From contig UQPV01000002.1 in NCBI GenBank assembly GCA_900543035.1, forward strand, positions 1 through 64,000: a stretch of DNA of 64,000 nucleotides. Reading direction: 5' to 3'. Position numbers and translations under genes: made by a program. This DNA is from an uncultured Solobacterium sp. Its GTDB lineage: Bacteria > Bacillota_I > Bacilli_A > Erysipelotrichales > Erysipelotrichaceae. The notes under the pieces were generated by a model. It made no database searches. It was not told the DNA's origin and worked only from the letters and a program-made list of their open reading frames with translations. Position 1 is the stretch's first letter; every line of letters starts with the position of its first letter. Below are positions 15,647 to 51,050 of this stretch, piece after piece.

Positions 15647-15671
15647 AAAATGCGAGACTGACTCTCGCATT
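15647..15671 (-). terminator. Terminator of the cold-shock protein gene
   Basis: AATGCGAGA pairs with TCTCGCATT, overlapping the stop codon, followed by TTTTCT on the minus strand. Confidence 0.7.
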
Positions 15672-15867
15672 AGATCTTTCTCACATTCTGCGCCTGTGGG
15701 CCGCGTTCGCTGTGCAGCACATCAAAGCTTACCCGCTCTCCCTGTTCCAGGATCCTGAAGCCGTCCATCAGGATCTGCGTGTAATGCACAAAGATGTCTC
15801 GATCTTCTTCATCGGTGATGAATCCATATCCTTTATCTTTATTGAACCATTTTACCGTGCCTTCCAT
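15670..15867 (-). CDS. csp: Cold-shock domain protein
   Basis: 65 residues, a single OB-fold cold-shock domain that binds single-stranded RNA/DNA. RNP1 reads KGYGFIT and RNP2 reads DIFVHYT, where most members have VFVHFS. The start at 15867 follows GGAAGGAGGGGG. The first 29 nt overlap the end of comFC in another frame, so the gene is translationally close to the competence operon. Other family members act as RNA chaperones in growth and cold shock. Confidence 0.93.
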   Translation of the reverse strand: MEGTVKWFNKDKGYGFITDEEDRDIFVHYTQILMDGFRILEQGERVSFDVLHSERGPQAQNVRKI

Positions 15868-17679: not shown

Positions 17680-17738
17680 CTCATCCTCTCCTCTGCCCCT
17701 CCTATACGCCTGCTTCTTTTGCTCCCCTGATCGGCGGC

Positions 17739-17770
17739 AAAAAAAAGCTCCTGTCGATGACAAAAGCTTT
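17739..17770 (-). terminator. Terminator after galE
   Basis: On the minus strand AAAGCTTTTGTC pairs with GACAGGAGCTTT (G-T pairs), followed by eight T. Confidence 0.75.
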
Positions 17771-17775
17771 GATGT

Positions 17776-18786
17776 TTACTGTTGTTTTGCCTTACAGGCA
17801 AAGTGCCAGGCATCCGCACACATTTCCTCAAGGCCCTTTTCGGCCTTCCAGCCCAGCTCACGCTGCGCTTTCTCTGTGCTGGCATAACATGTGGCGATAT
17901 CGCCCGGGCGCCGCGCATCGATCTGATAAGGCACCTCGAGCGCATTGACGCGGGCAAAGGTGTGAACGACCTCCAGCACGCTGTAGCCATTGCCGGTGCC
18001 CAGGTTGTACGCATCGATGCCGATGTGCTCGCGAAGCAGCTTGTCCACGGCATTGACATGGCCCTTGGCCAGATCGACCACATGGATATAGTCGCGCACC
18101 CCGGTGCCGTCCGGCGTATCATAATCATTGCCGAACACATGCAGCAGCGGCAGCTCCCCTGCGGCCACCTTGACGATATAGGGCATCAGGTTGTTGGGGA
18201 TATCGTTGGGGCTCTCCCCCAGCAGACCGCTCTTATGTGCGCCGATCGGATTGAAGTAACGCAGCAGCGCGATGTTCCACTCCGCATCCGAAACATGCAG
18301 ATCGCGCAGGATCTGTTCGATCATCAGCTTGGTCGTGCCATACGGATTGGTCGTCGGCCCAAGACGACATTCCTCATCGATCGGCACCCGCTGCGGATCG
18401 CCATATACCGTGGCGCTGGAAGAGAATACCAGACGCCGGCAGCCATGTCTGCGCATCACCTTGCACAGGTTCAGCGTGCTCATCAGATTGTTCTCATAAT
18501 ACATCAGCGGCTTGGCCACCGATTCCCCGACTGCCTTATATCCGGCAAAGTGGATCACCGCATCGATCTTGTGTTCGGTGAAGATCCGCTCAAGCGCCTG
18601 CTCATCCAGACAGTCCTCCTCATAAAAGGAGACATGATGTCCGCTGATCTGCTCGATGCGCTGTGCGACCTCTCGCTTCGAGTTATACAGATTGTCGATG
18701 ATCACGACCTCATAGCCGGCATCCAGCAGTTCCACACATGTATGGGAACCGATGAATCCGGTCCCTCCGGTAACCAGTATCTTCAT
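17776..18786 (-). CDS. galE: UDP-glucose 4-epimerase
   Basis: 336 residues, extended short-chain dehydrogenase. NAD-binding GGTGFIGSH at the N-terminus, catalytic Ser in SSSATVYG, YxxxK as YGTTK, and YFNPIGAH match GalE. It interconverts UDP-Glc/UDP-Gal or UDP-GlcNAc/UDP-GalNAc for galactose use and surface polymers. Its start overlaps the stop of the upstream aminotransferase by 4 nt (ATGA). Confidence 0.94.
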   Translation of the reverse strand: MKILVTGGTGFIGSHTCVELLDAGYEVVIIDNLYNSKREVAQRIEQISGHHVSFYEEDCLDEQALERIFTEHKIDAVIHFAGYKAVGESVAKPLMYYENNLMSTLNLCKVMRRHGCRRLVFSSSATVYGDPQRVPIDEECRLGPTTNPYGTTKLMIEQILRDLHVSDAEWNIALLRYFNPIGAHKSGLLGESPNDIPNNLMPYIVKVAAGELPLLHVFGNDYDTPDGTGVRDYIHVVDLAKGHVNAVDKLLREHIGIDAYNLGTGNGYSVLEVVHTFARVNALEVPYQIDARRPGDIATCYASTEKAQRELGWKAEKGLEEMCADAWHFACKAKQQ

Positions 18787-20000
18787 TTGTTCTCATCCTT
18801 TCCCGAATCTGTCGGCTTCATTATATCAGATCCGCCAGAAAACAAACAGCTGCGGGCAAGCCGCTGTGCAGCTTCTTCAATTTGTTCGTCAGAAATGACC
18901 AGCGCGATGCGCACATGCCGGCGGCCTTCCGCACCGAATTCTGTTCCCGGGGTCACGACGATGCCGCATTCCGCAAGCAGGCTCAGCGCAAACTGTTCGC
19001 TGTCCGCAAAGGCATCCGGGATCCTGGCCCACACGAACATGGTGGCGGCGCTCGGCCTGATCACCCATCCGGCTTCCCCGAAGCGGCGCACGAGCAGATC
19101 GCGGCGATGCTCGTAAGCCTTTCGCGTCGTCTCCACACAGTTCTGATCCGCTTCCAGCGCAGCGATGCCAGCCTGCTGCACCGGCAGGAAGATGCCATAG
19201 TCCATATTGGATTTCAGCCGGTGATACCCGGCGATCAGCTCACGGTTGCCCACACAGACGCCCAGGCGTGCCCCAGCCATGCCGTAAGTCTTGGAGAAGG
19301 AATTCAGTTCCACGCCCACATCCTTGGCTCCGGGATAAGAGAGGAAGCTCTTTCCCCGCTTGCCGTCAAATACCAGCTCGCTGTAAGCATTGTCATGCAG
19401 GACAGCGATGTCCCATCGCTTGGCAAAGGCGATCAGCTCCGTATAAAAGCGGTCGTCCGCAACGGCTCCGGTCGGATTGTTCGGATAAGAGACGATCATC
19501 AGCACAGCTTTCTTCGCCACTTCTTCGCTGATCTCATCGAAGCGGATCAGGAAATCATTTTCCTCTTTCATGGGCATGAACCGCACATCCGCGCCGGCCA
19601 GCTTCGGTCCTTGCGCGAAAATCGGATAATATGGATCAGGCACAAGGACGATATCACCCGGATCACACAAGGTCAGTGCGATGTTGGCCAAGGCTTCCTG
19701 AGAGCCCTGCAGCGTGATCACCTCGCTGCAAGGATCCAGCTCTACATCATAGCGCCTGCGATACCAGTCTGTGATCGCCTGCTGCAGCCGCGGCAGATCA
19801 TGGATCGCATAGCGGTAATTGGCGGGATCCTCTGCCGCCTTCAACAGCGCCTCCATGATATGCGGGGCAGGTGCGATATCCGGCGATCCGATGGAAAAGT
19901 CGATGATCTTCTCTCCCTTTTCCTGCAGCCGCCGCTTCTCCTCATCCAGTCGGGAAAAGACCGAAGGGCGGAAATACTTCATCCTCTCTGCGCTCTTCAT
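18783..20000 (-). CDS. Class I/II PLP-dependent aminotransferase
   Basis: 405 residues, fold type I. NNPTGA (VSYPNNPTGAV) and the Schiff-base motif SFSKTYGMAGARLG are clear. The N-terminus (FDFSIGSPDIAP-like) and length resemble the LL-diaminopimelate aminotransferase / AspC-like group, so L-lysine/peptidoglycan diaminopimelate synthesis or amino-acid transamination are both possible. The tail after ~390 (SGGSDIMKPTDSGKDENK) is hydrophilic and poorly conserved in the family. It heads a two-gene operon with galE. Confidence 0.85.
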   Translation of the reverse strand: MKSAERMKYFRPSVFSRLDEEKRRLQEKGEKIIDFSIGSPDIAPAPHIMEALLKAAEDPANYRYAIHDLPRLQQAITDWYRRRYDVELDPCSEVITLQGSQEALANIALTLCDPGDIVLVPDPYYPIFAQGPKLAGADVRFMPMKEENDFLIRFDEISEEVAKKAVLMIVSYPNNPTGAVADDRFYTELIAFAKRWDIAVLHDNAYSELVFDGKRGKSFLSYPGAKDVGVELNSFSKTYGMAGARLGVCVGNRELIAGYHRLKSNMDYGIFLPVQQAGIAALEADQNCVETTRKAYEHRRDLLVRRFGEAGWVIRPSAATMFVWARIPDAFADSEQFALSLLAECGIVVTPGTEFGAEGRRHVRIALVISDEQIEEAAQRLARSCLFSGGSDIMKPTDSGKDENK

Positions 20001-26613: not shown

Positions 26614-26783
26614 TTTTTTCCTCCTATCTCTCCTTATTCGGATCTTCTCAGTACATTTTGATACATGCTAAAAAGTTCACCAGCAATTTCATCATTCCGC
26701 ATGAGTTTTCTTCATGAACGTGATATTTAACATCTCTCTTTGTTTCCACGCACATGCTTGAAATATGTCTGCTTTTTTATTTC

Positions 26784-27664: not shown

Positions 27665-28348
27665 TCAGCACTGCAGCCGTTTTCTCTCCATGATGCCCAG
27701 AAACTGCTGCTTTCGCGAGCGGGCAAGCGGCAGGCGGTCCTGCTGATCCATGAGCACCGTATCGCTCTCCACGCCGAACACATGATGCATATTGACCAGA
27801 AATGAGGCATGGATGCGTTCAAACCCATACGGCGCAAAGCGCTCCGCCATGTCATTCATGCTGGCGCGTTCGCTGAACAGCCCTCTTCTGGTATGGAAAC
27901 AGACGAGCTTGTCTTCCTTCGACAGATAATAGATATCATTCATGCTCAGGATCACTTTCACATTGTTATAGGAGAAGACGTATTCCTCTTTTCCGCGCAG
28001 GCGTCTGTCCACCTTCGGATACTGCTCCCGCAGTTCCTGGATGATCCGTTTCTCATGCAGGAAGAAGGTGCGCTCACTGTTCTGTGCTTCGATCTCGTCT
28101 CCCTCATGCAGCACATAGATCACGACTCGATCTTCATACGGCCTGACAAAGACGCTCTCTGCCCGCTGTGTAGCGAACATGGCCTTGAGGATGACGATGT
28201 CATACTCTTCTCCCCGCTGTGCCGCAGCCAGCTCGCTCGCCTTCAGAAACGGGCGAAACAGCCACTCTTCCTGATGAAGCAGCTTTCCCAATTCATAAAT
28301 GATCGCCTTCGCTGTGCGTTCATCTTCCAAAATTGCGATCCGGATCAT
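27665..28348 (-). CDS. LytTR-family regulator with degenerate receiver domain
   Basis: 227 residues. Residues 1-110 have a receiver-like start (IAILEDERTAKA) but the phosphoacceptor position reads YDIVILKAM, with Lys55 instead of Asp, and the conserved Thr/Lys end of the domain is not evident. Residues ~125-222 form a LytTR DNA-binding domain (DIYYLSKEDKLVCFHT, FERIHASFLVNM, LPLARSRKQQF). LytTR proteins bind paired direct repeats and often control virulence, competence or wall genes. No histidine kinase is next to it, so it is probably an orphan regulated by other means. It is divergent from the CBM9 lipoprotein and shares its cre-containing control region. Confidence 0.85.
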   Translation of the reverse strand: MIRIAILEDERTAKAIIYELGKLLHQEEWLFRPFLKASELAAAQRGEEYDIVILKAMFATQRAESVFVRPYEDRVVIYVLHEGDEIEAQNSERTFFLHEKRIIQELREQYPKVDRRLRGKEEYVFSYNNVKVILSMNDIYYLSKEDKLVCFHTRRGLFSERASMNDMAERFAPYGFERIHASFLVNMHHVFGVESDTVLMDQQDRLPLARSRKQQFLGIMERKRLQC

Positions 28349-36729: not shown

Positions 36730-38586
36730 ATGAAAAAGGCAGCGAAGATCACAGCCTGGATATTGTTCATTCTGGTGAGCGCCATTCTCCTTATATATAC
36801 ATATGCGCTGATCGCACCGCTCTCGCTCAGCGAACAGCGCCATCACATCACATTATATGACCGCAATGGCGACATCCTGTACGAGAGCAACTTCGGCGAA
36901 GATATGGAATGGACCGATCTCGAAGACATCCCACAACAAGTGCAGGACGCCTTCGTCGCCGTGGAAGACCGCCGTTTCTACCTGCACATGGGCTTTGACC
37001 CGATCCGCATCGTCTCCGCGCTGCGAAACAACATGCACAGCGACACCTTGCAAGGCGGATCGACCATCACGCAGCAATATGCCAAAAACCTGTTTCTGAC
37101 CAATGAGCAGACGCTGCAGCGCAAGATCGAGGAGTTTTTCTATGCGGTCCGTCTCGAGATGCATTACAGCAAGGCAGACATCCTGGAAGGCTACCTCAAC
37201 ACCCTGTATTTCGGCCATGGCATCTACGGCATCAGCGAGGCCTCTTCTTATTATTTCGGCAAAGACATGGATGAGCTGAGCGCCGGCGAGCTGGCCATGC
37301 TGGTCGGCGTGGTCAACGGTCCCGGCGCCTTCTCCCCCTATCTGCATTATGAAAACGCCATCAGCCGCCAGCAGACCGTGCTGCAAGTGCTCAAAGATGA
37401 ACAGGTGATCGATGAAGCGGCATATGAAGAAGCCATGAACGAAGAGCTGGTCATCCTCGACCACCGCGATGATGAACAAGAAGACGATATCCGCGCATAT
37501 TACATCGACGCCGTCCTCGCTGAGCTTTCTGCCATGAACCTGACCAAGGACCAGCTCGATGTCTATACATATTTCGACCCGCAGGCAAGCCGCGCGCTCT
37601 ACCTTTCGCTGCAGGAGAATCTGGGCAGCGACAGCGAGATGCAGGCCGCCGCGGTCATCCTCGAGCCATTCACCGATCATATCCTGGCCATGGCCGGCGG
37701 CAAGAGCTACACGGAATCCCAATACAACCGCGCCCTGCACGCCGAGCGGCAGATCGCCAGCACCATCAAGCCGCTGCTGTATTACTGTGCGCTCCAGCAA
37801 GGCTTCACGCCGTCCACCACCTTCATCTCTCAGCCGACGACCTTCCAGCTGGGCGACAACGAGACTTACGCGCCGGGGAACTATGGCGATCAATACCCAT
37901 ATCGGGAGATCTCGATGATCAACGCCATCGGCATGTCAGACAACATCTACGCCGTGAAGACCCATCTGTTCCTCGGCACGCAGACGCTGCAGCATGCCCT
38001 GGCGCAATATGGCATCACCGCGGATGACAACGCTTCGCTGGCCCTGGGCACCGTATCGCTCAATGTCTGCGAGCTCGCTTCGATCTATAACAGCTTCGCT
38101 TCCGAAGGGCTGTATGCCCAGCCGCAGCTGATATCCGGCATCCGCAGCAAAGAAACATGGATCATGCAGGATGAGACGCAGATGAAGCAGCTGCTGAAGC
38201 GGGATGAGACGCTCATGCTCAGCCAGCTGCTCACTGCGACCTATGACCCGAAGAACATCACTTACGCTTACCCTTCCATGCTGGGCTCAGCGCCCGATGT
38301 GCCCACGGCCGTCAAGTCAGGCACCAGCGACTGGGACTCGCTGTGCGCCGGCTACAACCCGCAGTACACCCTCGTCATCTGGAGCGGCTACGACGATAAC
38401 CGCACGCTGGAAAAAGCAGACATGAGCCATGCACGGAAGATCTTCCAGGCCACCTTCGACCGCCTGTATGAAGGACGGGAAGGCCCATGGTATGAACGCC
38501 CGGATACGCTGGAAGAACGGCGGGTAGACCCCGTCAGCGGAGAGCCCTCATCTCAAGGCAGCGTATACTGGTATAAGAAGGAATGA
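36730..38586 (+). CDS. Class A penicillin-binding protein (bifunctional)
   Basis: 618 residues. An N-terminal membrane anchor (about 8-30) precedes a GT51 glycosyltransferase domain with the catalytic Glu79 in AVEDRRFY and GGSTITQQYAKN. The transpeptidase domain has the SxxK motif STIK (Ser344, Lys347), SDN near 403 in place of the usual SxN variants, and KSGT (Lys529). It polymerises and cross-links peptidoglycan. It is shorter than PBP1a of B. subtilis and lacks the C-terminal extension. GGTGATGCC precedes the ATG. The next gene encodes a wall hydrolase. Confidence 0.94.
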   Translation: MKKAAKITAWILFILVSAILLIYTYALIAPLSLSEQRHHITLYDRNGDILYESNFGEDMEWTDLEDIPQQVQDAFVAVEDRRFYLHMGFDPIRIVSALRNNMHSDTLQGGSTITQQYAKNLFLTNEQTLQRKIEEFFYAVRLEMHYSKADILEGYLNTLYFGHGIYGISEASSYYFGKDMDELSAGELAMLVGVVNGPGAFSPYLHYENAISRQQTVLQVLKDEQVIDEAAYEEAMNEELVILDHRDDEQEDDIRAYYIDAVLAELSAMNLTKDQLDVYTYFDPQASRALYLSLQENLGSDSEMQAAAVILEPFTDHILAMAGGKSYTESQYNRALHAERQIASTIKPLLYYCALQQGFTPSTTFISQPTTFQLGDNETYAPGNYGDQYPYREISMINAIGMSDNIYAVKTHLFLGTQTLQHALAQYGITADDNASLALGTVSLNVCELASIYNSFASEGLYAQPQLISGIRSKETWIMQDETQMKQLLKRDETLMLSQLLTATYDPKNITYAYPSMLGSAPDVPTAVKSGTSDWDSLCAGYNPQYTLVIWSGYDDNRTLEKADMSHARKIFQATFDRLYEGREGPWYERPDTLEERRVDPVSGEPSSQGSVYWYKKE

Positions 38587-38611
38587 TCCGCAATATTGCC
38601 CTGTTTTTTGT

Positions 38612-38679
38612 ACTTTTTAGCGAGACATGTGCACTTTTTAGCGGTTTTATTTGTACCAATCTTACAACAATGTTATACT
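38612..38679 (+). promoter_or_regulatory. Promoter module of hydrolase A with 21-bp-spaced repeats
   Basis: Two perfect ACTTTTTAGC repeats start at 38612 and 38633 (21 bp apart). An extended -10 TGTTATACT ends at 38679, 41 bp after the second repeat's start. The stretch from the second repeat to the -10 aligns without gaps with 45327-45373. Confidence 0.7.
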
Positions 38680-38715
38680 GGACGCGTCGGAACAAGAAAA
38701 TACGAGGTGAAACGA

Positions 38716-39858
38716 ATGAATTTCTTAGAGAAACACAGCAAGAAGATCGCTGTCGCACTCTGTTTCGCAACATGCGTGCCAGTGGTTTCTGCTGTATACG
38801 CCTTTGAAGCACAGCCGGGATGGCATGGCGAAGGCAGCGACAGATATTACATTCTTGAAACATCGCGCGAACAGGCCGTCGGATGGCTGAAGCTGGACGA
38901 AGGAACATACTACTTCAACGATGAAGCAGATATGCAGTTCGGATGGCAGGAGATCGACGGCGCGAAATATTATTTCGATGAGAGCGGAAAGATGACCGTC
39001 GGCGAAGCAGAGGTCGACGGTGTGGCCTACCTGTTTCAGGAAGACGGCAAGATGCTGAGCGGATGGAATGACGATCATCTGTATGGAGAGAACGGCTATC
39101 CGCTGACCAACCAGTTCCTGGAACTGAAGGACGGCACCGTTTACTATCTGGATGAAAACGGCAAGAAAGCGACCGGATGGCAGACCATCGATGACAAGCG
39201 CTATTATTTCCAAGAAGACGGAACGCTTGCACGCGACATGGTGCGTGAAGGCAAAGAAGTGTATTATCTGAACGAAGACGGCTATGTGTACACCGGATGG
39301 CGTAATGTCAATGGCAATTCCTATTACTTTGACAAATACGGCATGATGTACACAGACATGAGCGCGGAGATCGACGGCGAAGAGTATGTCTTCGACAGCA
39401 ACGGCGTAGCGACGAGCAAAGCTGACCTCGAGAAGGCAGAAGCAGAAGCAGAAGCACAGGCCGATCAGGAAACGCAGAGCAGCAGCTCTTCTTCCTATGG
39501 CGGTTCAACGTCCAGCTCTGGTGCGCAGAGCTCCAGCGCGAACAGAAATGGGATCGTCCAGGCAGCGCTGGCACAGGTCGGCAACATTCAGGACTGCACG
39601 ATGCTGGTGACCAACGCGCTGGCAGCCAACGGCATCTACTACCACGGCTGGCCTTCAGGCTATCTGTCACTGGGTACGGTGACGAATGATCCGACCCCGG
39701 GCGATCTGATCTACTACGCGGACGGCGGCATGGGCATGGCGCACATCGCCGTATACATCGGAAATGGACAGGCCGTACACGGCGGATACAACGGCAACCA
39801 GACCGTGGTATCCACGGTCAATGTGGGATCTGGCCCAGTATACATCCGTTTGAACTGA
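38716..39858 (+). CDS. Secreted NlpC/P60-like cell-wall hydrolase with GW-type repeats (A)
   Basis: 380 residues. A signal peptide (about 1-29, cleavage near VYAFEAQ) is followed by about nine 19-21-residue cell-wall-binding repeats (for example GWQTIDDKRYYFQEDGTL), similar to choline-binding or glucan-binding repeats. A low-complexity linker (about 240-280, Glu/Ala then Ser) leads to the catalytic domain: Cys294 in DCTMLV, His343 in MAHIAV and His355 in AVHGGY. The fold matches NlpC/P60/CHAP amidase-endopeptidases that cut peptidoglycan peptides. The start at 38716 follows GAGGTGA. A close paralog lies at 45402. Confidence 0.88.
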   Translation: MNFLEKHSKKIAVALCFATCVPVVSAVYAFEAQPGWHGEGSDRYYILETSREQAVGWLKLDEGTYYFNDEADMQFGWQEIDGAKYYFDESGKMTVGEAEVDGVAYLFQEDGKMLSGWNDDHLYGENGYPLTNQFLELKDGTVYYLDENGKKATGWQTIDDKRYYFQEDGTLARDMVREGKEVYYLNEDGYVYTGWRNVNGNSYYFDKYGMMYTDMSAEIDGEEYVFDSNGVATSKADLEKAEAEAEAQADQETQSSSSSSYGGSTSSSGAQSSSANRNGIVQAALAQVGNIQDCTMLVTNALAANGIYYHGWPSGYLSLGTVTNDPTPGDLIYYADGGMGMAHIAVYIGNGQAVHGGYNGNQTVVSTVNVGSGPVYIRLN

Positions 39859-40112: not shown

Positions 40113-41972
40113 TCAGATCAGCTGACTCATGATCCATTCTTTATCATCAGTCGTCTTCATCTTTTCCAATACGGCGGCATCATCGAGCGCGGTGCAGACT
40201 TTGGCCAGCACTTCCATATGTTCACCGCCCATACCGGCAATACCGATGACGAGCTGTGCTTTCTCCTCGCCGAAATCAATGCCTTCCGGATACTGAAGCA
40301 ATACGATGCCTGTCTTATGGATGATCCCGGCATCATGCGTAGTGCCATGCGGGATAGCAAGCCCCATGCCGATATATGTCGTCACGATCTTCTCTCGCTC
40401 CAACATGGCCGGGATATACGCTTCATCCACATATCCCAGCTCATGCAGCAGCTCTCCGGCTGCCTGGATGGCTTCTTCTTTGGAAACGGATCTCAGATTG
40501 AGACGGATGCCTTCGGGGATCAGGATATCCTTGTTGCCTGCCGCAGCACCTTCTTCCGGCTCTTGATCATCGCTCTCTACCATCAGCTGATCGCCGGTAG
40601 ACAGCTGGAAGAACAGATCATCCAGTGCAGGATCCGCAAGGAAATTGCCGATGGTGATCAACTTGGCCTGCGGGGCAGATTCCCGGGCACGCTGTGCCAA
40701 TACCGCCTGTACGATGGCAATATCACAGTCAGATGGAATATTATCTACCGAAGTGTTGATGACCGTGATATCCGGGCGCACAGCTTTCAGACGATTGCGG
40801 AACTTGGTCGCGCCCATCGCTGAAGAGCCCATGCCCGCGTCACAAGCAAACACGATCTTTTTCGCGGTCACCACATCGATGAACTGTCCTTTTGACTGTG
40901 CCTTCATCTCCTGCATCTGGCCTTTGGCGTTCTCCAGGCTCTGTGTGCCGCGCGCATTGGCCAGCTTGACCAGCGGACATGCCACGGCAAAGGAGACACC
41001 GGCTGCGATGACCACGCCCAGCAGCGTCGGGATCATCGATCCGGTAGGGGCCATGGACGCAAAGGCGATGATCGATCCAGGCGAGGCCGGTCCGACCAGC
41101 CCGCATCCCATGAGCGAGTAAAATGCGATGGCGCACATATTCCCTACGATCGGCGCGATGATGATGATCGGATTCATCAAGATATACGGGAAATAGATCT
41201 CGTGGATGCCGCCCAGGAAATGGATGATGATGGCGCCTGGCGCAGAATCACGCGTCGTCTTATCTGTCGAACACAGCCAGTATGCCAGCAATACGCCAAG
41301 ACCCGGTCCCGGATTGGCCTCCAGCATATACATGATAGATTGTCCGGCTTGCGCTGCCTGTTCCACGCCGATCGGCGTAAAGATGCCATGATTGAGCGCA
41401 TTGTTGAGAAACAAGACTTTGGCTGGTTCCACAAAGATGGACACCAGCGGCAAGAGCCCATATTCCAGCAAGATGCCAACTCCGGCACTGAGCATGCTGA
41501 GGATGCCGGTCATGAGCGGACCGATGAAATAATACCCCAAGATAGCGAGGATCATGCCAAGGATACCGACTGAGAAATTGTTGATGAGCATCTCAAAGCC
41601 GGCTGGCATATGTCCCTCCATCAGCTGATCAAATTTCTTGATCACCCAGCCCGCAAACGGTCCCATGATCATGGCAGCCATCAGCATCGGCTGTCCATCC
41701 ACACCGCCAACTCCGGCGATGCATCCGACAATGGCGATCGCGCCGATGACCATGCCGCGTTCCTTGGCGATCATCTTGCCGCCGGTCGCAGCGATCAAGA
41801 TCGGAAGCAGATAAGTGAGCATATACGGCTGTATCGATGCCAGCTGCTCATTAGGCAGCCAGCCGTCGGCGATAAATAATGCGGTGATGAATCCCCAGGC
41901 AATGAACGCGCCGATGTTAGGCATGACCATTGCGGATAGAAATTTTCCAAACTTCTGAAGTGCTGTTTTCAT
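40113..41972 (-). CDS. mtlA: PTS system EIICBA, mannitol family
   Basis: 619 residues in MtlA order: membrane IIC domain (1-335, with the family loop GGIHEIYFPY), a IIB domain with the phosphorylated Cys in VFACDAGMGSSA, and a IIA domain with the active His in GLAIPHGT. It imports and phosphorylates a hexitol, most likely mannitol, though related members take other polyols. The start at 41972 follows GAGAGG. It is the third gene of an operon (dehydrogenase-deoR-EIICBA), with no MtlD, unlike typical mannitol operons. Confidence 0.9.
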   Translation of the reverse strand: MKTALQKFGKFLSAMVMPNIGAFIAWGFITALFIADGWLPNEQLASIQPYMLTYLLPILIAATGGKMIAKERGMVIGAIAIVGCIAGVGGVDGQPMLMAAMIMGPFAGWVIKKFDQLMEGHMPAGFEMLINNFSVGILGMILAILGYYFIGPLMTGILSMLSAGVGILLEYGLLPLVSIFVEPAKVLFLNNALNHGIFTPIGVEQAAQAGQSIMYMLEANPGPGLGVLLAYWLCSTDKTTRDSAPGAIIIHFLGGIHEIYFPYILMNPIIIIAPIVGNMCAIAFYSLMGCGLVGPASPGSIIAFASMAPTGSMIPTLLGVVIAAGVSFAVACPLVKLANARGTQSLENAKGQMQEMKAQSKGQFIDVVTAKKIVFACDAGMGSSAMGATKFRNRLKAVRPDITVINTSVDNIPSDCDIAIVQAVLAQRARESAPQAKLITIGNFLADPALDDLFFQLSTGDQLMVESDDQEPEEGAAAGNKDILIPEGIRLNLRSVSKEEAIQAAGELLHELGYVDEAYIPAMLEREKIVTTYIGMGLAIPHGTTHDAGIIHKTGIVLLQYPEGIDFGEEKAQLVIGIAGMGGEHMEVLAKVCTALDDAAVLEKMKTTDDKEWIMSQLI

Positions 41973-42023
41973 ATGATATCCTCTCCAGAGAATGCCGGGG
42001 TGCCGCTCCATCAGCCATAGCCG

Positions 42024-42785
42024 CTAGTAAACAGCTACGCCCAGCTCCTCACATTTCTCTTTAAACGCTTGCGGAAGTTCATTGTCACAGATCACAGCGT
42101 GCGCATCCTGAAGCTGACAGATCGTATACGTTCCCCGTTGACCGATCTTGGAGGAGTCCATCAGCACGATGATCTTTTTCGTGCGTGCGATGACCGTGCG
42201 CTTGAGCAGTGCGTCCTCCAGCGATTCACAAGTAAATCCTGTCTCTTGATCAAATCGGGTCACGCCGATAAAAGCAATATCAAAATTGACCTTCTGCAGG
42301 CTTTGTATCGCTTCGCTGCCATTGACGCTCAGGCTGCGGCAATTCACGCTTCCTCCGACCAATGAGATATGTGACTGTTCCAGCCGTGCCATCTCAATGG
42401 CACATGTCAGTCCGCTGGTAAAGAACATATCCGGCTGATCCTTGAGGATATGCGCAAGCATGGTCGTAGTGCTGCCAGAATCAAAGAATATGGTCCGGTT
42501 TGCCTCCACGAATGCCAGCGCCTTTTTCGCGATCACGCGCTTTGCTTCGGTATTGCGAACGAATCGCTTTTTCAGCACGTCATCATTGCCGACCACCTGA
42601 TCGATAGATTTCGCACCGCCATGGATGCGGACCAGCTGTCTGTTCTGATCCAGCACTTTCAGATCGGTCCGCAAGGTCATTTCCGATACCGATGGGAACC
42701 GTTCCTTAAGCTGCGCAAAAGTGACGCTTTCCCGTTCATTGACAAATGCGACGATCTCGCTGCGTCTTTGTTCCATTACTTCCAT
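42024..42785 (-). CDS. DeoR family transcriptional regulator
   Basis: 253 residues. N-terminal winged HTH (RRSEIVAFVNERESVTFAQL...MTLRTDLKVLDQNRQLVRIHGGA) and the C-terminal sugar-phosphate-binding domain (FDSGSTTTMLA, FIGVTRFDQETGF, MDSSKIGQRGTY). Such repressors sense phosphorylated intermediates of sugar pathways. It lies between the dehydrogenase and PTS genes and probably acts on the inverted repeats in the 44118-44286 region. The start at 42785 is set 10 nt from GGAG; 42794 is an alternative with too little spacing. Confidence 0.9.
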   Translation of the reverse strand: MEVMEQRRSEIVAFVNERESVTFAQLKERFPSVSEMTLRTDLKVLDQNRQLVRIHGGAKSIDQVVGNDDVLKKRFVRNTEAKRVIAKKALAFVEANRTIFFDSGSTTTMLAHILKDQPDMFFTSGLTCAIEMARLEQSHISLVGGSVNCRSLSVNGSEAIQSLQKVNFDIAFIGVTRFDQETGFTCESLEDALLKRTVIARTKKIIVLMDSSKIGQRGTYTICQLQDAHAVICDNELPQAFKEKCEELGVAVY

Positions 42786-42854
42786 TCTGTTCATGCTCCT
42801 TTCACCTTGTCGTGTTAATTCTTATTATACACGAGGCGTTCGGAGTTGAACAAA

Positions 42855-44117
42855 TCATTCACTGATAAAATGAGCCAGCAGATACTCCTCTGCTTCTGGG
42901 CACCACAGCCCTTTATGTGCATCGACGATATCTGCCAATGCGGCAAAGCGCGGATCATCCTTACCTTTGTCACGCAGCTCGCTCAACGCGGTCAGCGGCA
43001 TGTTGAGATGTGTGTAGATCAGCTTTTTTCCGCCTGGGATCTTAGGCAGGTTCAGCGTCGTTTCCGCCGCGGAATCCAGTCCGCCGATATGCGTCACCAT
43101 GACTGCAGGATCGATGCGTTTCTCCGCGGTAAGACGCAGTGACTCGATCATATCCTCGGTATTGCCTCCGGTCGTGCCCATGACATGTGTAGAGTTGTAA
43201 TGCACATCATAGAAATTCATCTTAGCGCTGAATTGCTTATCAGTCGGTCCGGCAAAGAAATTCAGGCAGCCGTCTCGGCCGAGGACAGCGCTGGACAGTT
43301 CTACCACTGAGGCGATCGGCGCATAACAGAATACATCGTCAAAGCCATCTCCCCCGCTGATCTCGCGCAGGCTGGCAGCCGGATCATCCATATCAGCAGT
43401 ATTGACGAAATGCAGCTCGATGCCCTCTGCAGCCGCTTCTTCGATCGGAAACAGATGCTTCGCGCGATCCAGACGTTCCTGATTGATGTCTGTCACGACG
43501 ATCATGCCCGGACGTCTGTCGCAGTGCAGCGCATAAGTCAGCGCACCCAGTCCCATCGGCCCGGCGCCAGCAAGGATAGCGAGCTTTCCTCCTTCACGGA
43601 TGCCCATCTCATGATGGTATACCCCCATCTTCGTATGATAGGCGGCATGGAATGCGCCGATGCTGCAGGACATTGGCTCTGCCAGCGATGCTTCATAATA
43701 TGCGCGTCCCTTATATTCCAGCAGACAGCCCAATTCCATCACTTCAGGCGGAATGATGCAATACGTGGTGTCGCCGCCGAAGAACTCATAGGAATAGCCC
43801 GGGCTCCACATCGTCCCTTTATAATTCAGGGCCGGCTGCAATGTGAACTTCATGCCCGGCTTGAACCGATCCTGGTGCTTCTTTCCTACTTTGATGATGT
43901 CTCCTGCCATCTCATGTCCCATGATGGCAGGATGATCCGCCACATCTTCATGCACGCGCTTGTGCGCGGTGCCCAGGATGGCACATTTGTAGGTGGACAT
44001 ACAAACGCTGTCGGATACTACTTTTACCAGGATCTCATCATCCTTGATCTCGGGCAGCTCGAATTCTTCCAGCCGCAGGTCGTTCGCTCCATGTAATCTG
44101 ACTGCTTTAGCTTTCAT
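42855..44117 (-). CDS. Zinc-dependent medium-chain dehydrogenase (SorE-like)
   Basis: 420 residues. The GroES-like N-terminal domain has a Cys in DSVCMSTYKCA and the zinc/catalytic HEMAGDI; the Rossmann domain starts with AGAGPMGLGALTYAL. It lacks the four-Cys structural zinc lobe of yeast-type enzymes. The protein resembles L-sorbose-1-phosphate reductase SorE and related hexitol-phosphate dehydrogenases, so it would interconvert a hexitol phosphate and a ketose phosphate. It is the first gene of the PTS operon, which supports a sugar-phosphate substrate. The exact sugar is unknown. Confidence 0.8.
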   Translation of the reverse strand: MKAKAVRLHGANDLRLEEFELPEIKDDEILVKVVSDSVCMSTYKCAILGTAHKRVHEDVADHPAIMGHEMAGDIIKVGKKHQDRFKPGMKFTLQPALNYKGTMWSPGYSYEFFGGDTTYCIIPPEVMELGCLLEYKGRAYYEASLAEPMSCSIGAFHAAYHTKMGVYHHEMGIREGGKLAILAGAGPMGLGALTYALHCDRRPGMIVVTDINQERLDRAKHLFPIEEAAAEGIELHFVNTADMDDPAASLREISGGDGFDDVFCYAPIASVVELSSAVLGRDGCLNFFAGPTDKQFSAKMNFYDVHYNSTHVMGTTGGNTEDMIESLRLTAEKRIDPAVMVTHIGGLDSAAETTLNLPKIPGGKKLIYTHLNMPLTALSELRDKGKDDPRFAALADIVDAHKGLWCPEAEEYLLAHFISE

Positions 44118-44144
44118 TTCAAAAACTCCTTTCTGTATATAATT

Positions 44145-44164
44145 GTTGAATCAAAAGCTTCAAC
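44145..44164. promoter_or_regulatory. Operator candidate of the dehydrogenase operon
   Basis: GTTGAA-N8-TTCAAC lies immediately downstream of the -10 element of the minus-strand promoter, a typical repressor position. Confidence 0.6.
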
Positions 44165-44167
44165 CAT

Positions 44168-44195
44168 ATAATATCACGATTTTGCACTCTGTCAA
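44168..44195 (-). promoter_or_regulatory. Promoter of the dehydrogenase-deoR-PTS operon
   Basis: Minus strand TTGACA (44190-44195), 16-bp spacer, TATTAT (44168-44173). Confidence 0.75.
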
Positions 44196-44217
44196 CTGTT
44201 ATTTCGAAAATTATTAT

Positions 44218-44246
44218 TTGACTTTCAACAATGTTGGTGCTATGCT
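44218..44246 (+). promoter_or_regulatory. Promoter of the PfkB kinase gene
   Basis: TTGACT (44218-44223), 17-bp spacer, TATGCT (44241-44246). The spacer contains CAACA-a-TGTTG (44226-44236), which shares half-sites with the operator at 44145-44164. Confidence 0.7.
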
Positions 44247-44286
44247 GATGATGAAGAGGCCAACATCGTGGCATAGGAGGAAGAAC

Positions 44287-45201
44287 ATGATTTATACGGT
44301 AACGTTCAATCCATCGCTCGACTACATCATCCGGGTGAATGATTTCAGCACTGGCACCATCAATAAGACGACTTTTGAAAAGCTTCTCCCTGGCGGAAAA
44401 GGAATCAATGTATCCATCGTCCTTGCTAACCTGGGTCATGAAAGCACCGCCCTGGGCTTTGTAGCCGGATTTACCGGAGAAGAGATCGAAGCTCGGCTGA
44501 AGCAATTTGGATGCGGCATCGATTTCATCAAAGTTCAAGACGGGCTTTCACGAATCAACGTCAAGATGAAGTCACAAGAAGAAACAGAGATCAACGGACA
44601 AGGACCGCGAATCAATGAAGGAGAACTGGAAACGCTGTTTGCTAAGATCGACGCTATCCGCGATGAGGACATGCTCGTGATTTCCGGCAGCATCCCCACT
44701 TCTCTGCCAGACGATATGTATGAGCGCATCATGAAGCGCATGCAAGGCAAGCGCACACGTGTGATCGTAGATGCAGCCGGCAGTTTGATGATGAAGGTGC
44801 TGCAATTCCACCCATTCCTGATCAAGCCGAACCATCATGAGCTGGGCGATCTGTTTGGCGTAAAGCTCACCACGCCGCAGGAGGTCATCCCTTATGCCCG
44901 CAAGCTGCAAAAGCTGGGCGCACGCAACGTGCTGGTCTCCATGGCCAAGGCCGGCGCCGTGCTGCTGGATGAGCATGGCCAAACACACATGAGCCCGGCG
45001 CCGCAAGGCACGCTGGTCAACTCTGTAGGTGCAGGCGACTCCATGGTCGCTGGTTTCCTATCCGGCTATCTCGAATCAGATGGGGACCATGCATATGCGC
45101 TGCGAAAAGGGATCGCCGCCGGCAGCGCCAGTGCATTCTCTGAAGATCTTGCCACTGCCAGGGAGGTCAGCATGCTGCTCAGCCGCATGAATGCCTCCTG
45201 A
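44287..45201 (+). CDS. PfkB family sugar-phosphate kinase, 1-phosphofructokinase type
   Basis: 304 residues. N-terminal FNPSLDYIIRV and GGKGINVS match the FruK/LacC branch of the PfkB family; the C-terminal VNSVGAGDSMVAGF holds the catalytic Asp and anion hole. Likely reactions are fructose 1-phosphate or tagatose 6-phosphate plus ATP to the bisphosphate. It is divergent from the PTS operon and shares operator half-sites with it, which suggests a common pathway. The start at 44287 follows GGAGGAAGAAC. The aldolase at 33229 could take the product. Confidence 0.85.
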   Translation: MIYTVTFNPSLDYIIRVNDFSTGTINKTTFEKLLPGGKGINVSIVLANLGHESTALGFVAGFTGEEIEARLKQFGCGIDFIKVQDGLSRINVKMKSQEETEINGQGPRINEGELETLFAKIDAIRDEDMLVISGSIPTSLPDDMYERIMKRMQGKRTRVIVDAAGSLMMKVLQFHPFLIKPNHHELGDLFGVKLTTPQEVIPYARKLQKLGARNVLVSMAKAGAVLLDEHGQTHMSPAPQGTLVNSVGAGDSMVAGFLSGYLESDGDHAYALRKGIAAGSASAFSEDLATAREVSMLLSRMNAS

Positions 45202-45246: not shown

Positions 45247-45305
45247 CGTTATTCAATATTCTTAAAAAAATTCAAAAAAATCCTTTATTTGACATCAATT
45301 TTTGC

Positions 45306-45373
45306 ATTTTTCAACGCATTATTTATACTTTTTAGCCATTTCCTTTGCAGCCATCTTACAAAAATGTTATACT
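45306..45373 (+). promoter_or_regulatory. Promoter module of hydrolase B with 21-bp-spaced repeats
   Basis: ACTTTTTAGC at 45327 is preceded 21 bp upstream by the weaker ATTTTTCAAC (45306, 7 of 10 matches). The extended -10 TGTTATACT ends at 45373, 41 bp after the second repeat's start, exactly as at hydrolase A. Confidence 0.68.
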
Positions 45374-45401: not shown

Positions 45402-46433
45402 ATGAATCTTTTAGAGAAACATGGCAGGAAGATCGCGCTGGCGCTCTGCTTCGCGACATGCATTCCCGTCATCTCCACCGTTTACGCCTACGAAGCACAG
45501 CCGGGATGGCATGGCGAAGGCGCTGAGCGATACTATGTTCTCGAAACGACCAGGGAACAGGCCACAGGATGGCTGAAGCTGGACGAAGGGACATATTACT
45601 TCAACGAGACCGGCGAAATGATGACCGGATGGCAGACCATCGGCGATTTCCGTTATTATTTTGATGCAGATGGAAAGATGGCCGCCGGCGAACGGACCAT
45701 TGACGAAACCGACTGGTATTTCCAGGAAGACGGCCGTCTGCTGAGCGGATGGCAAGACGATACCCTGTATGATGCGCACGGCTATCTGATCACATCCCGT
45801 TTCATCACCACAGAAGAGGGCACCCTCTATGTGAATGCGGACGGCAGAAAGGTGAGCGGATGGCAGACCATCGACGGCAGCCGCTATTATTTTGATGAAC
45901 ATGGCATCCGCCAGAGCGGCACGATCGAAGTGAACGGCGAGACGTATGTGCTCGATGAGGACGGCGTCCTGCAGACCGGCTGGTCTGATGATCACGCCCA
46001 TTACCGCGACGCATACGGAAAGATCGTCAAAAACACGACCATGGAGATCGACGGCATGACATATATCTTCGATGAAGAAGGCAACGCCATGGATGAAGAA
46101 GAAGCGCGCAGGCAGGAACGTGCCGGGATCGCGGAGGCCGCGCTGGCACAGGTCGGCACGGCACAAGACTGCACGATGCTGGTGAGCAACGCATTGGCCG
46201 CCAATGGCATTTATTACCATGGATGGCCGGCTGGCTACCTCTCTTTGGGCACAGTGACCGACGACCCGCAGCCAGGCGATCTGATCTATTATGCCGACGG
46301 CGGCATGGGCATGGCCCACATCGCCGTATATATCGGCAACGGACAGGCCGTGCATGGCGGCTACAACGGCAGTGAGACCGTAGTGGCCAGCGCTTATCTC
46401 GGCTCAGGCCCCGTATTCATCCGCATCGGATAA
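45402..46433 (+). CDS. Secreted NlpC/P60-like cell-wall hydrolase with GW-type repeats (B)
   Basis: 343 residues, a paralog of the protein at 38716 in all parts: near-identical signal peptide and first 50 residues (EAQPGWHGEG), cell-wall-binding repeats (GWQTIDGSRYYFDEHGI), and the catalytic domain with Cys257 in DCTMLV and His306 in MAHIAV. It lacks the Ser-rich linker; a short Glu/Arg stretch (about 235-250) joins the domains. The start at 45402 follows GAGGTGA. The conserved catalytic domain but divergent repeat array suggests different wall ligands or positions. Confidence 0.88.
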   Translation: MNLLEKHGRKIALALCFATCIPVISTVYAYEAQPGWHGEGAERYYVLETTREQATGWLKLDEGTYYFNETGEMMTGWQTIGDFRYYFDADGKMAAGERTIDETDWYFQEDGRLLSGWQDDTLYDAHGYLITSRFITTEEGTLYVNADGRKVSGWQTIDGSRYYFDEHGIRQSGTIEVNGETYVLDEDGVLQTGWSDDHAHYRDAYGKIVKNTTMEIDGMTYIFDEEGNAMDEEEARRQERAGIAEAALAQVGTAQDCTMLVSNALAANGIYYHGWPAGYLSLGTVTDDPQPGDLIYYADGGMGMAHIAVYIGNGQAVHGGYNGSETVVASAYLGSGPVFIRIG

Positions 46434-47329: not shown

Positions 47330-47364
47330 AAAGCGAAGCACGAGCGCGCTTCGCTTTTTATATG
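47329..47364. terminator. Bidirectional terminator between HAD and HD genes
   Basis: AAAAAGCGAAG pairs with CTTCGCTTTTT; A- and T-runs on both sides serve both genes. Confidence 0.9.
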
Positions 47365-48584
47365 CCGATCTCCTTAGGAAAATAAATCAGCTCCTGTCCG
47401 CTGAATTCCGCCTCGGTGAGCGCGCGGACGATCGTGCTCTTTTCCGAGAGCTCATGCAGCGATCCATCCTCGCTGACGATCCAGATCACATGTGTGCCGC
47501 CGCGCCCCTGGTATGGAGAATACGGCTTTTGGACGACATGGTCCTTGACGACATAATAGCGCGGATCATAGCCGCTCTCCCGCGCCTTCCGGCGGATCTT
47601 CTCCAGCTGTGACTCATCCTCATATTCCACATAGTCAAACAAGCGGCGGCTGCGGGCCCTGGATGCCAGATCGCGCAGCACAGGATCATCGCCATGCTCC
47701 AGCAGGGAGAAGCCATAAAGCGCGGCAGACTCATCCAGCACATACAGATCCTCGATGCCTGCCGGCGCATCCTGCAAAAATGGCACGAACATCTCCAGGC
47801 GGGAAAACGCATCCGCATCCTTCTGCCACTGTTCCTTCATCCGGCGAAAGATCATCGTGATGATCGTCTCATAGCTGCGGGCGACCGGATGCAGGTAGAC
47901 CTGCCAGTACATATGATAACGCGCCATGATATAATCCTCCACGCTGTGGATGCCGCTCTCCTTGACGGCCATCCGCCCGCCGCGCACACGGATGGTGCGC
48001 AGGATCCGCTCCATATCAAAGGTGCCATAGCTGGTGCCGGTGAAATATGCATCTCTCAGCAGATAATCCATGCGGTCGGCGTCCAGCTGTCCGCTGACGA
48101 GCTGATTGAGCAGATCGTTGGGATGCCGGTAAGCGATGATGGCCGCGATATCCTGCGGCAGCCTGGGATCAGCGTCCGCCAGCACTTGGTGGATCTCACT
48201 GTCTTCCAGCAGGATGCGCTGAGTGAACGTCTCATGCCGGCAGCTGCTCACGGATTCAAACGCATGAGAGAACGGACCGTGTCCGATGTCATGCAAAAGC
48301 CCTGCCAGCATGGCCGTGCATTTCTCATATTCGCTGAAAGATTCCGCGATATCCGGGATCTCCCGCACCATGCGCCTGACGATCTCATAGACTCCCAGCG
48401 AGTGAGAAAACCGCGTATGCTCTGCCGTATGATACACCTGAAAGTCGCCGCCCAGCTGATGGATGCGGCGCAGACGCTGAAATTCCCGCGTGTTGAGACA
48501 GTCCCACACCACCTTCAGGTCGATATGGATATATCCGTGGATCGGATCACGGAGCACTTTTACTTCTGGCGTTCGTTCAAGCAT
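47358..48584 (-). CDS. HD-domain phosphohydrolase (YwfO/dGTPase-like)
   Basis: 408 residues. HD motif pieces: RFSHSLGVYEIV, GLLHDIGHGPFSHAFE and the later LDADRMDYLLRDAY, the pattern of the SAMHD1/dGTPase-like group including B. subtilis YwfO. Such enzymes hydrolyse dNTPs or related nucleotides. AGGAGGTGATGGC precedes the ATG. The N-terminus overlaps the 3' end of the NUDIX gene by 25 nt, so the two are co-expressed, a plausible pair for nucleotide pool cleaning. Confidence 0.9.
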   Translation of the reverse strand: MLERTPEVKVLRDPIHGYIHIDLKVVWDCLNTREFQRLRRIHQLGGDFQVYHTAEHTRFSHSLGVYEIVRRMVREIPDIAESFSEYEKCTAMLAGLLHDIGHGPFSHAFESVSSCRHETFTQRILLEDSEIHQVLADADPRLPQDIAAIIAYRHPNDLLNQLVSGQLDADRMDYLLRDAYFTGTSYGTFDMERILRTIRVRGGRMAVKESGIHSVEDYIMARYHMYWQVYLHPVARSYETIITMIFRRMKEQWQKDADAFSRLEMFVPFLQDAPAGIEDLYVLDESAALYGFSLLEHGDDPVLRDLASRARSRRLFDYVEYEDESQLEKIRRKARESGYDPRYYVVKDHVVQKPYSPYQGRGGTHVIWIVSEDGSLHELSEKSTIVRALTEAEFSGQELIYFPKEIGI

Positions 48585-49045: not shown

Positions 49046-50896
49046 TCAATCTTTTTTCTGCAGCACTATGGCCAGCACGGCGATGTCCGCCGGATTGACC
49101 CCGGAGATCCGCGAAGCCTGTCCCAGCGTCATCGGCCGGATCTCGCTCAGCTTCTGCCGCGCCTCCAAAGAGAGATGCGCCATCTGTTGATAGTCGATAT
49201 CTCTGGGGATCTTCATCTGATCCATCGCCCGCAGATGTCTGGCATCGCGGCGGGCCTTCTGGATATAGCCTTCATATTTGATCTCGATCTCGATCTGCCG
49301 GGCAGCCTTCTCTTCCACTTGCATGCCGGTATACGGCTGCAGCGCCGCCAAGGTGATGTTCGGCCGCTTTAACAGATCACGCACGCTGATGCCCTCTTTC
49401 AGCGGTTCATAGCCGATCGCGCGCAGATAATCGTTCACTTCTGACTTCGGCGTGAAACGGATCTCTTCGCACTGCTTCATCCCCTCCGCGATGCGCCGTT
49501 TCTTCTCCTGGAAGCGGGCATAGCGCGCCTCGCTGATCAGCCCATAGGCATGGCCGTATTCGCTCAGCCGCATATCTGCGTTATCATGGCGCAGCAGCAG
49601 GCGGTATTCGGCCCGGGACGTCAACAGCCGGTATGGCTCCTTCGTCCCTTTGGTCACCAGATCATCGATCATGACGCCGATATATGCCTCGTCGCGGCGC
49701 AGCACGAGCGCTTCTTTGCCCAGCAGGCGCGAAGCAGCGTTGATACCGGCGATGAGCCCCTGTGCGGCCGCCTCTTCATATCCGCTCGTCCCGTTGATCT
49801 GCCCTGCCGTATACAAGTTTTCCACCAGCTTGTTTTCCAGCGTCGGATAACACTGCAGCGGATCGATGGCGTCATATTCGATCGCATAGGCATATTTATC
49901 GATGACACAGTGCTCCAGCCCCGGCAGGCTGTGCAGCATCGCTTCCTGGACATCGTGGGGCATCGAAGTGGAGAAGCCTTGGATATAGGTCGTATCCAGC
50001 GAACGGCTCTCCGGCTCAAGGAAGATCTGATGACGCGGCTTGTCCGCAAAGCGCACCAGCTTATCCTCGATGCTCGGGCAATAACGCGGTCCTACGCCCT
50101 TGACCAGCCCGGAATACATCGCAGAGTCCTCCAGGTGATCACGGATGATCTGATGGGTCTGCGGGGTCGTATAGGTCAGATAGCAGACCGCTTGCTCTGC
50201 AAAAGGAAGGATGGCGGTCGTATCCTCGCTGAAGCAGACAAAATCATCTGTGCCAGGCTGCACCGCAGTCTTCGTGAAATCGATCGAATCGCTCTTCACC
50301 CGAGCCGGCGTACCGGTCTTCAAGCGGAAGGTACGGATCCCCAGATCGCGCAGGCTCTGCGAGAGCGCATCCGTGGTCGGTTCTCCCTCCGGTCCCCCGG
50401 ACACTGCGCGATGGCCCACCAGGATAGTAGAGCTCATGAAGGTCCCGCTGGTGATGATCAGCGCACGGCACATTTCCACATGCCCATCCTGTAGCTGCAC
50501 GCCCTTCACCTTGCCATCGGATGCGATGACCCGCTCCACACACTGTTCCCTCACCTGCAGATGTTCCTGATGCAGCAGGACATCCTGCATGTATTTCCGA
50601 TAGGCGATCTTGTCGCTTTGCACGCGCAGGCTCTGTACGCCTGGCCCTTTGGTCGTGTTGAGCATCTTGAACTGCAGCGCGGTCGCGTCCGCCGCCCGGC
50701 CCATCTCTCCGCCTAACGCATCGATCTCCCGCACGACGATACCTTTCGCCGGTCCGCCGACACTGGGATTGCACGGCATAGAGCCGATCATGTCGATGTG
50801 CATCGTAAACAGCACCGTTTCCATCCCCATGCGGGAAGCAGCCAGCGCGGCCTCGATGCCGGCATGCCCGCCTCCGATCACAATGATATCCACCAT
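49046..50896 (-). CDS. mnmG: tRNA uridine-5-carboxymethylaminomethyl synthesis enzyme MnmG
   Basis: 616 residues, flavoprotein. The FAD motif VIGGGHAGIEAALAASRMG starts at residue 5; GPRYCPSIEDK and QINGTSGYEEAAAQGL are diagnostic, and the C-terminal helical domain ends ISGVNPADIAVL. Works with MnmE (5960) to modify U34. The start at 50896 follows GTGAGGAAC; an upstream frame to 51013 lacks conservation. Its separation from mnmE and rsmG is unusual for Bacillota. Confidence 0.95.
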   Translation of the reverse strand: MVDIIVIGGGHAGIEAALAASRMGMETVLFTMHIDMIGSMPCNPSVGGPAKGIVVREIDALGGEMGRAADATALQFKMLNTTKGPGVQSLRVQSDKIAYRKYMQDVLLHQEHLQVREQCVERVIASDGKVKGVQLQDGHVEMCRALIITSGTFMSSTILVGHRAVSGGPEGEPTTDALSQSLRDLGIRTFRLKTGTPARVKSDSIDFTKTAVQPGTDDFVCFSEDTTAILPFAEQAVCYLTYTTPQTHQIIRDHLEDSAMYSGLVKGVGPRYCPSIEDKLVRFADKPRHQIFLEPESRSLDTTYIQGFSTSMPHDVQEAMLHSLPGLEHCVIDKYAYAIEYDAIDPLQCYPTLENKLVENLYTAGQINGTSGYEEAAAQGLIAGINAASRLLGKEALVLRRDEAYIGVMIDDLVTKGTKEPYRLLTSRAEYRLLLRHDNADMRLSEYGHAYGLISEARYARFQEKKRRIAEGMKQCEEIRFTPKSEVNDYLRAIGYEPLKEGISVRDLLKRPNITLAALQPYTGMQVEEKAARQIEIEIKYEGYIQKARRDARHLRAMDQMKIPRDIDYQQMAHLSLEARQKLSEIRPMTLGQASRISGVNPADIAVLAIVLQKKD

Positions 50897-51050
50897 GTTC
50901 CTCACCTGACTTTTCCATACTATTATACTCGTGAACGATAGAAAGCAAAAGAGCAAAAAAAAGATATGGCCCATACATTTCCCATAATGTTCACATGTCC
51001 ACCACACTGTCATTGCTTCAACCGCTTACAATGAAAGAAGGAGGATTGAG

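Follow-up and report, generated by a model that had tools for sequence, protein, structure and literature searches.

The window, that is, the whole 64-kb stretch of DNA analysed here, carries two paralogous genes, A and B, for proteins with choline-binding repeats and an NlpC/P60 domain (Table 1). The N terminus of the gene A product is signal-like, as judged by eye, and the protein cluster nearest to gene A is 99% identical to it. Gene A follows a PBP gene; B lies further on, ahead of a HAD-type gene and then an HD-domain gene. Between A and B (40113-45201) there are PTS, DeoR-type regulator, zinc dehydrogenase and PfkB genes. The arrangement of A and B is likely the result of a duplication with insertion.

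Table 1. Features of the hydrolase promoters and of the LytTR gene in the window.
Feature	Position	Strand	Remarks
LytTR-domain protein	27665..28348	-	PF04397 1.6e-14; candidate of the first-pass annotation, unsupported as regulator of these sites
Gene A, distal half-site TTTGTACTTTTTAGC	38607..38621	+	Includes the first 10-bp repeat; independent matrix match 38606-38641, 29.0 bits
Gene A, proximal half-site TGTGCACTTTTTAGC	38628..38642	+	Includes the second 10-bp repeat (38633-38642)
Gene A, weak -35 TTGTAC	38651..38656	+	3/6 matches, 17-bp spacer
Gene A, extended -10 TGTTATACT	38671..38679	+	Identical at B, L002, L004 and L005
Gene A	38716..39858	+	380 aa; choline-binding repeats (PF19127 1.1e-30) and NlpC/P60 (PF00877 1.7e-9)
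Gene B, distal half-site TTTGCATTTTTCAAC	45301..45315	+	Degenerate; matrix match 45300-45335, 32.6 bits, best of the window
Gene B, proximal half-site TTTATACTTTTTAGC	45322..45336	+	
Gene B, -10 TATACT	45368..45373	+	41 bp from the start of the proximal ACTTTTTAGC, like A
Gene B	45402..46433	+	343 aa; paralogue of A, 62% identical; choline-binding repeats and NlpC/P60

The gap of 129 bp between the PBP gene (36730-38586) and gene A houses two copies of ACTTTTTAGC on the forward strand, the first at 38612-38621, with a start-to-start distance of 21 bp. The first-pass annotation had described these as 10-bp direct repeats 21 bp apart, and we confirm this: the window has four exact copies of ACTTTTTAGC against 0.04 expected from shuffles. 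The description is real and also incomplete, as both copies are the 3' portion of ~15-bp direct repeats TTTGYACTTTTTARC with 6 bp between them, and the unit recurs at the paralogue B and in three related genomes. At gene A the two units are identical at 13/15 positions. At gene B the proximal ACTTTTTAGC is identical to that of A; its partner, exactly 21 bp further upstream, is degenerate. The fourth exact copy is found at 26667-26676 on the reverse strand, upstream of a small ORF that looks ferredoxin-like by eye. It has no partner at 21 bp and is absent from the top matrix matches in the window, hence we treat it as chance or as a lone half-site.

Downstream of the gene A operator, the -10 hexamer TATACT (38674-38679) is preceded by TGT and begins 41 bp from the start of the proximal ACTTTTTAGC. 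This distance, noted earlier as fixed for A, holds likewise for B. The operator is followed, after 8 bp, by the -35 position, where TTGTAC agrees with TTGACA at 3/6 positions. The scan of 38560-38760 gave no sigma-70 site reaching 9/12 matches, and therefore the earlier remark that the promoter has no good -35 was right. A candidate WalR-type box in the spacer, TGTAAG-N5-TGCAAA on the opposite strand, was also considered.

To place the promoters in a wider context, we scanned genome contigs with the alignment of A and B and obtained seven hydrolase loci in three Merdibacter-type genomes (G001-G003). One hydrolase locus per genome (L002, L004 and L005) has the same promoter layout as A and B. 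The clearest is L002, with TTTGCACTTTTTAAC, 6 bp and TTTGCACTTTTTAAC again, and it is from these promoters that the unit of ~15 bp follows. The locus L005 belongs to M. massiliensis, where the order argS (-), PBP (+), hydrolase (+) and HD-domain gene (-) matches that of the window; the argS, PBP and HD-domain proteins are 86, 70 and 73% identical, respectively. By these syntenic flanks the counterpart of gene A in M. massiliensis bears the repeat. Two further Merdibacter-type hydrolase genes besides it have the repeats, a weak -35 and the extended -10.

The first-pass annotation had made its case depend on the repeats being present upstream of orthologs in related genomes. They are present by synteny, in M. 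massiliensis; by phylogeny the answer is not clear-cut. In the tree of 12 hydrolases L002, L004 and L005 split from L001, L003 and L006, A pairs with L011 of G001 (100/99), and B is not firmly placed. The upstream sequence of L011 is that of the overlapping contig piece L007 and has no repeat. Thus, with A grouped next to a site-less gene, tree and synteny disagree on the orthology of A.

Several further features of these promoters deserve mention in their own right. The 5' box of the half-site, TTTGYA, recurs at the -35, 22 bp past the proximal half-site (38650-38656 at A and 45344-45349 at B), and this third TTTGYA is common to all five repeat-bearing hydrolase promoters (A, B, L002, L004 and L005). 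It may simply serve as the -35, or provide a third weak contact. The spacer of A (38661-38666), B, L002 and L004 contains CTTACA, and that of L005 contains CTTTCA. At L001, L003 and L006, which belong to the other hydrolase class, CTTACA stands upstream of the -35, within a near-palindrome CTTACAAATTTGCAAG that overlaps it; a second regulator may act on both hydrolase classes. In M. massiliensis a GH84-type protein of 2063 aa (12948-19139, reverse strand of L005) has its own repeat at 19301-19336, less than 10 kb from the hydrolase. The window differs here: after the HD-domain gene (47358-48584) comes gidA (49046-51013), not a GH84-type gene.

The search for the regulator used the genomes of the hydrolase loci (G001-G003) together with their relatives. 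At up to 3 mismatches the pair pattern occurs at six places in G001-G003, and the reversed control pattern at none. Three of the six are hydrolase promoters. Two others, one in each of two genomes, lie between an AraC-family gene and a PTS IIB gene, and the sixth belongs to a CE2-type gene, the protein of which has a signal-like start. Tried on 12 genomes, a looser pattern picked out 32 sites and its reversed control 11; as this is too noisy, the stricter pattern was adopted. Among 60 relatives it yields, at up to 3 mismatches, 19 sites in 12 genomes against 1 control site; 11 of the 12 genomes have the AraC gene and G056 is without it. Among 294 relatives, at up to 2 mismatches, there are 54 sites in 33 genomes against 1 for the reversed pattern.

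The repeat goes together with the AraC-family gene. At E<=1e-70 the protein has 94 matches in 83 of the 294 genomes. All 33 repeat-bearing genomes possess it, 32 at this threshold and the remaining one, G011, at 5.5e-66 (hypergeometric P 4e-19 for the co-occurrence, a value inflated by kinship). Moreover, 23/54 sites precede the AraC gene by 30-389 bp, and all 23 share its strand. The distances were counted with one AraC gene per genome, in 34 entries made up of the 33 repeat-bearing genomes and G017; four genomes, namely G053, G055, G136 and G213, have two AraC matches. In the set of 60 genomes there are 27 AraC matches in 22 genomes (E<=1e-20), one of which is a 69-residue fragment in G048. 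The M. massiliensis protein, encoded at C12:88328-89506 of G003, has an AraC_binding domain (PF02311) and AraC-type helix-turn-helix matches to PF00165 HTH_AraC, in two stretches, and to PF12833 HTH_18. A protein search aimed at the AraC gene of the window's own genome listed seven clusters 74-99% identical to it, with no link from them to the hydrolase cluster nearest to gene A. At one locus, L094 of G027, two divergent copies of the repeat are found upstream of a single AraC gene, oriented at 1078-1112 and, on the opposite strand, at 1400-1434 (31.6 and 18.4 bits).

The same repeat was recovered de novo. Of 46 AraC loci obtained, 45 were used, the fragment L110 being excluded; a further nine (eight redundant and one with 158 bp upstream) were set aside for the motif search, leaving 36 non-redundant loci. 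An initial run on the raw 500-bp upstream regions returned only the coding sequence of a divergent PTS IIB gene, in 20/36 loci, which indicates that AraC and IIB genes are often neighbours. ORFs were then masked, and an expectation-maximisation search on the ORF-free upstream regions gave [A/C]TTTRCACTTTTTA-N8-TTTGYACTTTTTAR, the 21-bp direct repeat. Its likelihood was 438 against 85.5, 98.7, 102.5, 131.7 and 102.5 for five permuted sets, run from fewer starting points. At least 20 bits are reached at 25/36 AraC loci; among the other 11, eight score 11.7-17.8 bits and three, near or below zero, are without a site. A second half-site is found at exactly 21 bp in 16/35 loci and in 0-1 at any of the other offsets between 12 and 44, in a comparison that is partly circular, the half-site matrix being derived from the joint search. 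Each half has 13 informative columns (0.64-2.07 bits) and the gap columns hold at most 0.5 bits. The conserved unit is 13-15 bp. Two direct-repeat half-sites of ~15 bp, ~21 bp apart, are the arrangement of an AraC/XylS-type operator.

The matrix built upstream of the AraC genes contains no window or hydrolase sequence. Applied to the window, it gives its two highest scores at the operators of B and A (Table 1) and 10.4 bits for the third match; the maximum over 120 simulated strands is 10.0 bits. Without the Merdibacter AraC site, i.e. with the 24 other sites of at least 20 bits, the values are 28.3, 28.0 and, for the next match, 9.4. Hydrolase and LytTR loci were scored with the composition of the window and then with that of each locus. 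With own-locus composition L002, L004 and L005 reach 35.1, 29.8 and 30.9 bits, the best of their loci, against simulated maxima of 7.1, 7.7 and 15.2, respectively. The AT-rich scores of 17-19 bits at other loci drop under this treatment. In the matrix scan no full site was found at the other Merdibacter hydrolase loci L001, L003, L006 and L007 (fragment)/L011, nor at L024-L032, the loci of more distant hydrolase relatives. Among the loci scanned, a full site at hydrolase genes is thus confined to the window and the three Merdibacter-type genomes. Separately, L028 of G024 has one perfect half-site TTTGCACTTTTTAG at 2406-2421, 75 bp upstream of a distant hydrolase relative and pointing away from it, with no partner at 21 bp.

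The genes beside the remaining sites indicate what the system serves. Among the 294 genomes, at up to 2 mismatches, 31/54 sites fall outside the AraC upstream regions. Three of these 31 are the hydrolase promoters and 17 lie less than 600 bp from the start of an amino-sugar or glycan gene: PTS IIB (3), AgaS-like (1), GatZ/KbaZ (2), GH84 (2), GH123 (2), GH31-type (1), F5/8C (1) and CE2_N (5). One of the GatZ/KbaZ sites has a class-II aldolase on its other side. Another site is beside a BspA-type LRR protein, seven have no glycan-related gene start nearby, and three further sites, one at a contig edge, were not classified. The looser pattern adds a site beside the alpha-L-fucosidase of G001 (L072). 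The PTS IIB protein of M. massiliensis, the sole IIB scanned, scores above the NCBIfam cut-offs of both galactosamine IIB and N-acetylgalactosamine IIB; the IIC next to it and the AgaS-like isomerase do not reach theirs. In the relatives, not in the window, sites accompany galactosamine PTS, AgaS and tagatose-bisphosphate aldolase genes, as in an aga-type system. This set resembles the aga pathway joined to secreted mucin-type glycosidases. These neighbours speak for amino-sugar and glycan use, not for wall turnover as such, for which a regulator had been envisaged earlier.

Taken as a whole, we suggest that the repeats are a candidate AraC/XylS-type operator of an amino-sugar/mucin-glycan regulon which, in this lineage, includes secreted NlpC/P60 wall hydrolases, and we put the probability of this reading at roughly 0.8. 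The ~15-bp direct repeats TTTGYACTTTTTARC, 21 bp apart, would be the two half-sites. As regulator we consider the AraC-family protein of related Erysipelotrichaceae, with its AraC_binding and AraC-type helix-turn-helix domains, the most likely; its gene often adjoins PTS genes of the galactosamine type and is itself preceded by this repeat. We presume that an orthologue is also present in the genome of the window.

A site upstream of a regulator gene is no proof of autoregulation, and the AraC-family protein is only presumed to bind it, so that a regulator encoded elsewhere could bind the repeat and control the AraC gene together with the glycan and hydrolase genes. We consider this unlikely. 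The site stays with the AraC gene where the neighbourhood changes (at L179 the neighbour is a pantothenate kinase gene), and it accompanies AraC orthologues down to ~40% identity. Moreover, the pairing of an AraC-type helix-turn-helix with direct repeats of 15+6+15 bp is a match already described.

The first-pass annotation had instead drawn on LytTR-type regulators: the protein encoded at 27665-28348, or another of this type, would bind a pair of ~9-bp sites and activate transcription of the hydrolases. In our view this is quite improbable. The LytTR consensus of ~9 bp is [TA][AC][CA]GTTN[AG][TG]; compared by eye, ACTTTTTAG matches 6/8 specified positions, the G not being matched, and the conserved unit is longer, at 13-15 bp. 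The geometry on which the proposal was based does fit. Read as LytTR sites, the gene A repeats are 11 bp apart, within the 11-13 bp of such sites, and lie 8 bp before the -35 of a promoter with an extended -10, as in the systems of PMC6193735. AraC/XylS-type sites, with 15-bp repeats 6 bp apart, fit the same spacing equally well. Since LytTR sites are 9-bp repeats 11-13 bp apart near the -35, geometry alone cannot decide against them. They are disfavoured by unit length and distribution.

As to distribution, ~10 kb separate the LytTR gene from A in the window, and on the M. massiliensis contig its orthologue and the hydrolase are ~12 kb apart. LytTR genes are common: orthologues (E<=1e-30) occur in 14/60 relatives and LytTR-like proteins, other LytTR-domain proteins included (E<=1e-5), in 34/60. 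Of the 11 genomes among the 60 that bear the repeat at up to 2 mismatches, 7 have the LytTR orthologue (P 0.002) and all 11 have the AraC gene. Sorted by gene content, the repeat is found in 7/10 genomes with both genes, 4/12 with AraC only, 0/4 with LytTR only and 0/34 with neither. Thus, the repeat tracks the AraC gene, not the LytTR gene. At the LytTR loci fetched from three relatives there is no site; the best score is 7.4 bits, or 3.9 with own composition. The sites precede the AraC gene and amino-sugar genes. Within the first 130 residues of the LytTR protein of the window, Pfam gives no match to a receiver domain.

That the T-rich repeats, as helix-phased T tracts ahead of a promoter whose -35 is weak, are an UP-like element or curved DNA with no specific regulator is very improbable: TTTGYAC is as informative as the T tract, with G up to 2.07 bits, the sites are as far as 389 bp away from gene starts and occur in both orientations, and their distribution tracks the AraC gene.

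Under the AraC/XylS-type reading, we suggest the following course of events at genes A and B. A dimer of the AraC-family protein presumably sits immediately before the weak -35 and, in response to an amino-sugar signal, would help RNA polymerase onto the extended -10. The position of the operator, 8 bp before a poor -35 and ahead of an extended -10, fits a dimer that recruits polymerase, and we therefore favour activation over repression here. At many PTS and glycosidase genes, unlike at the hydrolase genes, the site lies 99-344 bp upstream and points away, so the mode of action may differ there.

Such an arrangement predicts that a wall hydrolase shares its switch with amino-sugar genes, and thus cutting of peptidoglycan may be turned on together with sugar foraging. 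The place of the hydrolases in a glycan regulon may be due to the choline-binding-type repeats binding glycans, or to peptidoglycan being itself a source of amino sugars. More broadly, we find it nearly as likely as not that an AraC-type sensor of host-mucin amino sugars governs glycan foraging across Erysipelotrichaceae, and that in the Merdibacter lineage secreted NlpC/P60 hydrolases with choline-binding-type repeats were recruited to it, so that peptidoglycan cutting joined mucin feeding. If this is true, the cutting would either remodel the own wall or attack the walls of neighbours for their amino sugars. The analysis names a candidate regulator for the use of amino sugars and mucin-type glycans in a family of gut bacteria, together with a sharply defined operator. 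Among open-licence full texts we found no description of this AraC regulon.

The control of galactosamine and N-acetylgalactosamine genes described so far involves other protein families, namely AgaR1 and AgaR2 of the GntR family in Lactobacillales and AgaR of the DeoR family in E. coli (PMC4694137). The AgaR regulons are similar in gene content, with PTS, isomerase, aldolase and hydrolase genes. However, the sites of AgaR1 and AgaR2 are palindromes of 20 and 18 bp, whereas here there are direct repeats and an AraC-family protein. The strings 'AraC' and 'Erysipel' have no occurrence in the main text of that paper. LytTR systems have two 9-bp direct repeats 11-13 bp apart, mostly ~10 bp upstream of the -35 (PMC6193735). 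HdrR and BrsR of S. mutans are thus similar in having direct repeats at this distance near the -35. In contrast to the present case, their unit is 9 bp and the sites are on the LytTR operons themselves; the LytTR loci examined here are site-free, and the LytTR gene distribution does not match that of the repeat.

In geometry the repeats match the operators of AraC-family regulators. XylS sites are two 15-bp direct repeats with a 6-bp gap (PMC5481539), and the sites of SphR, another AraC-family protein, are 15-bp repeats 6-8 bp apart (PMC3900636). Box A is shared as well, TGCA in XylS and TGYA here. Other details differ: in its 3' half the repeat reads TTTTTARC, where XylS has GGTA. XylS and SphR are Pseudomonas regulators for aromatics and sphingosine, respectively, and their neighbouring genes are unlike those found here. 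XylS at Pm and SphR share with genes A and B a pair of 15-bp direct repeats close upstream of the promoter.
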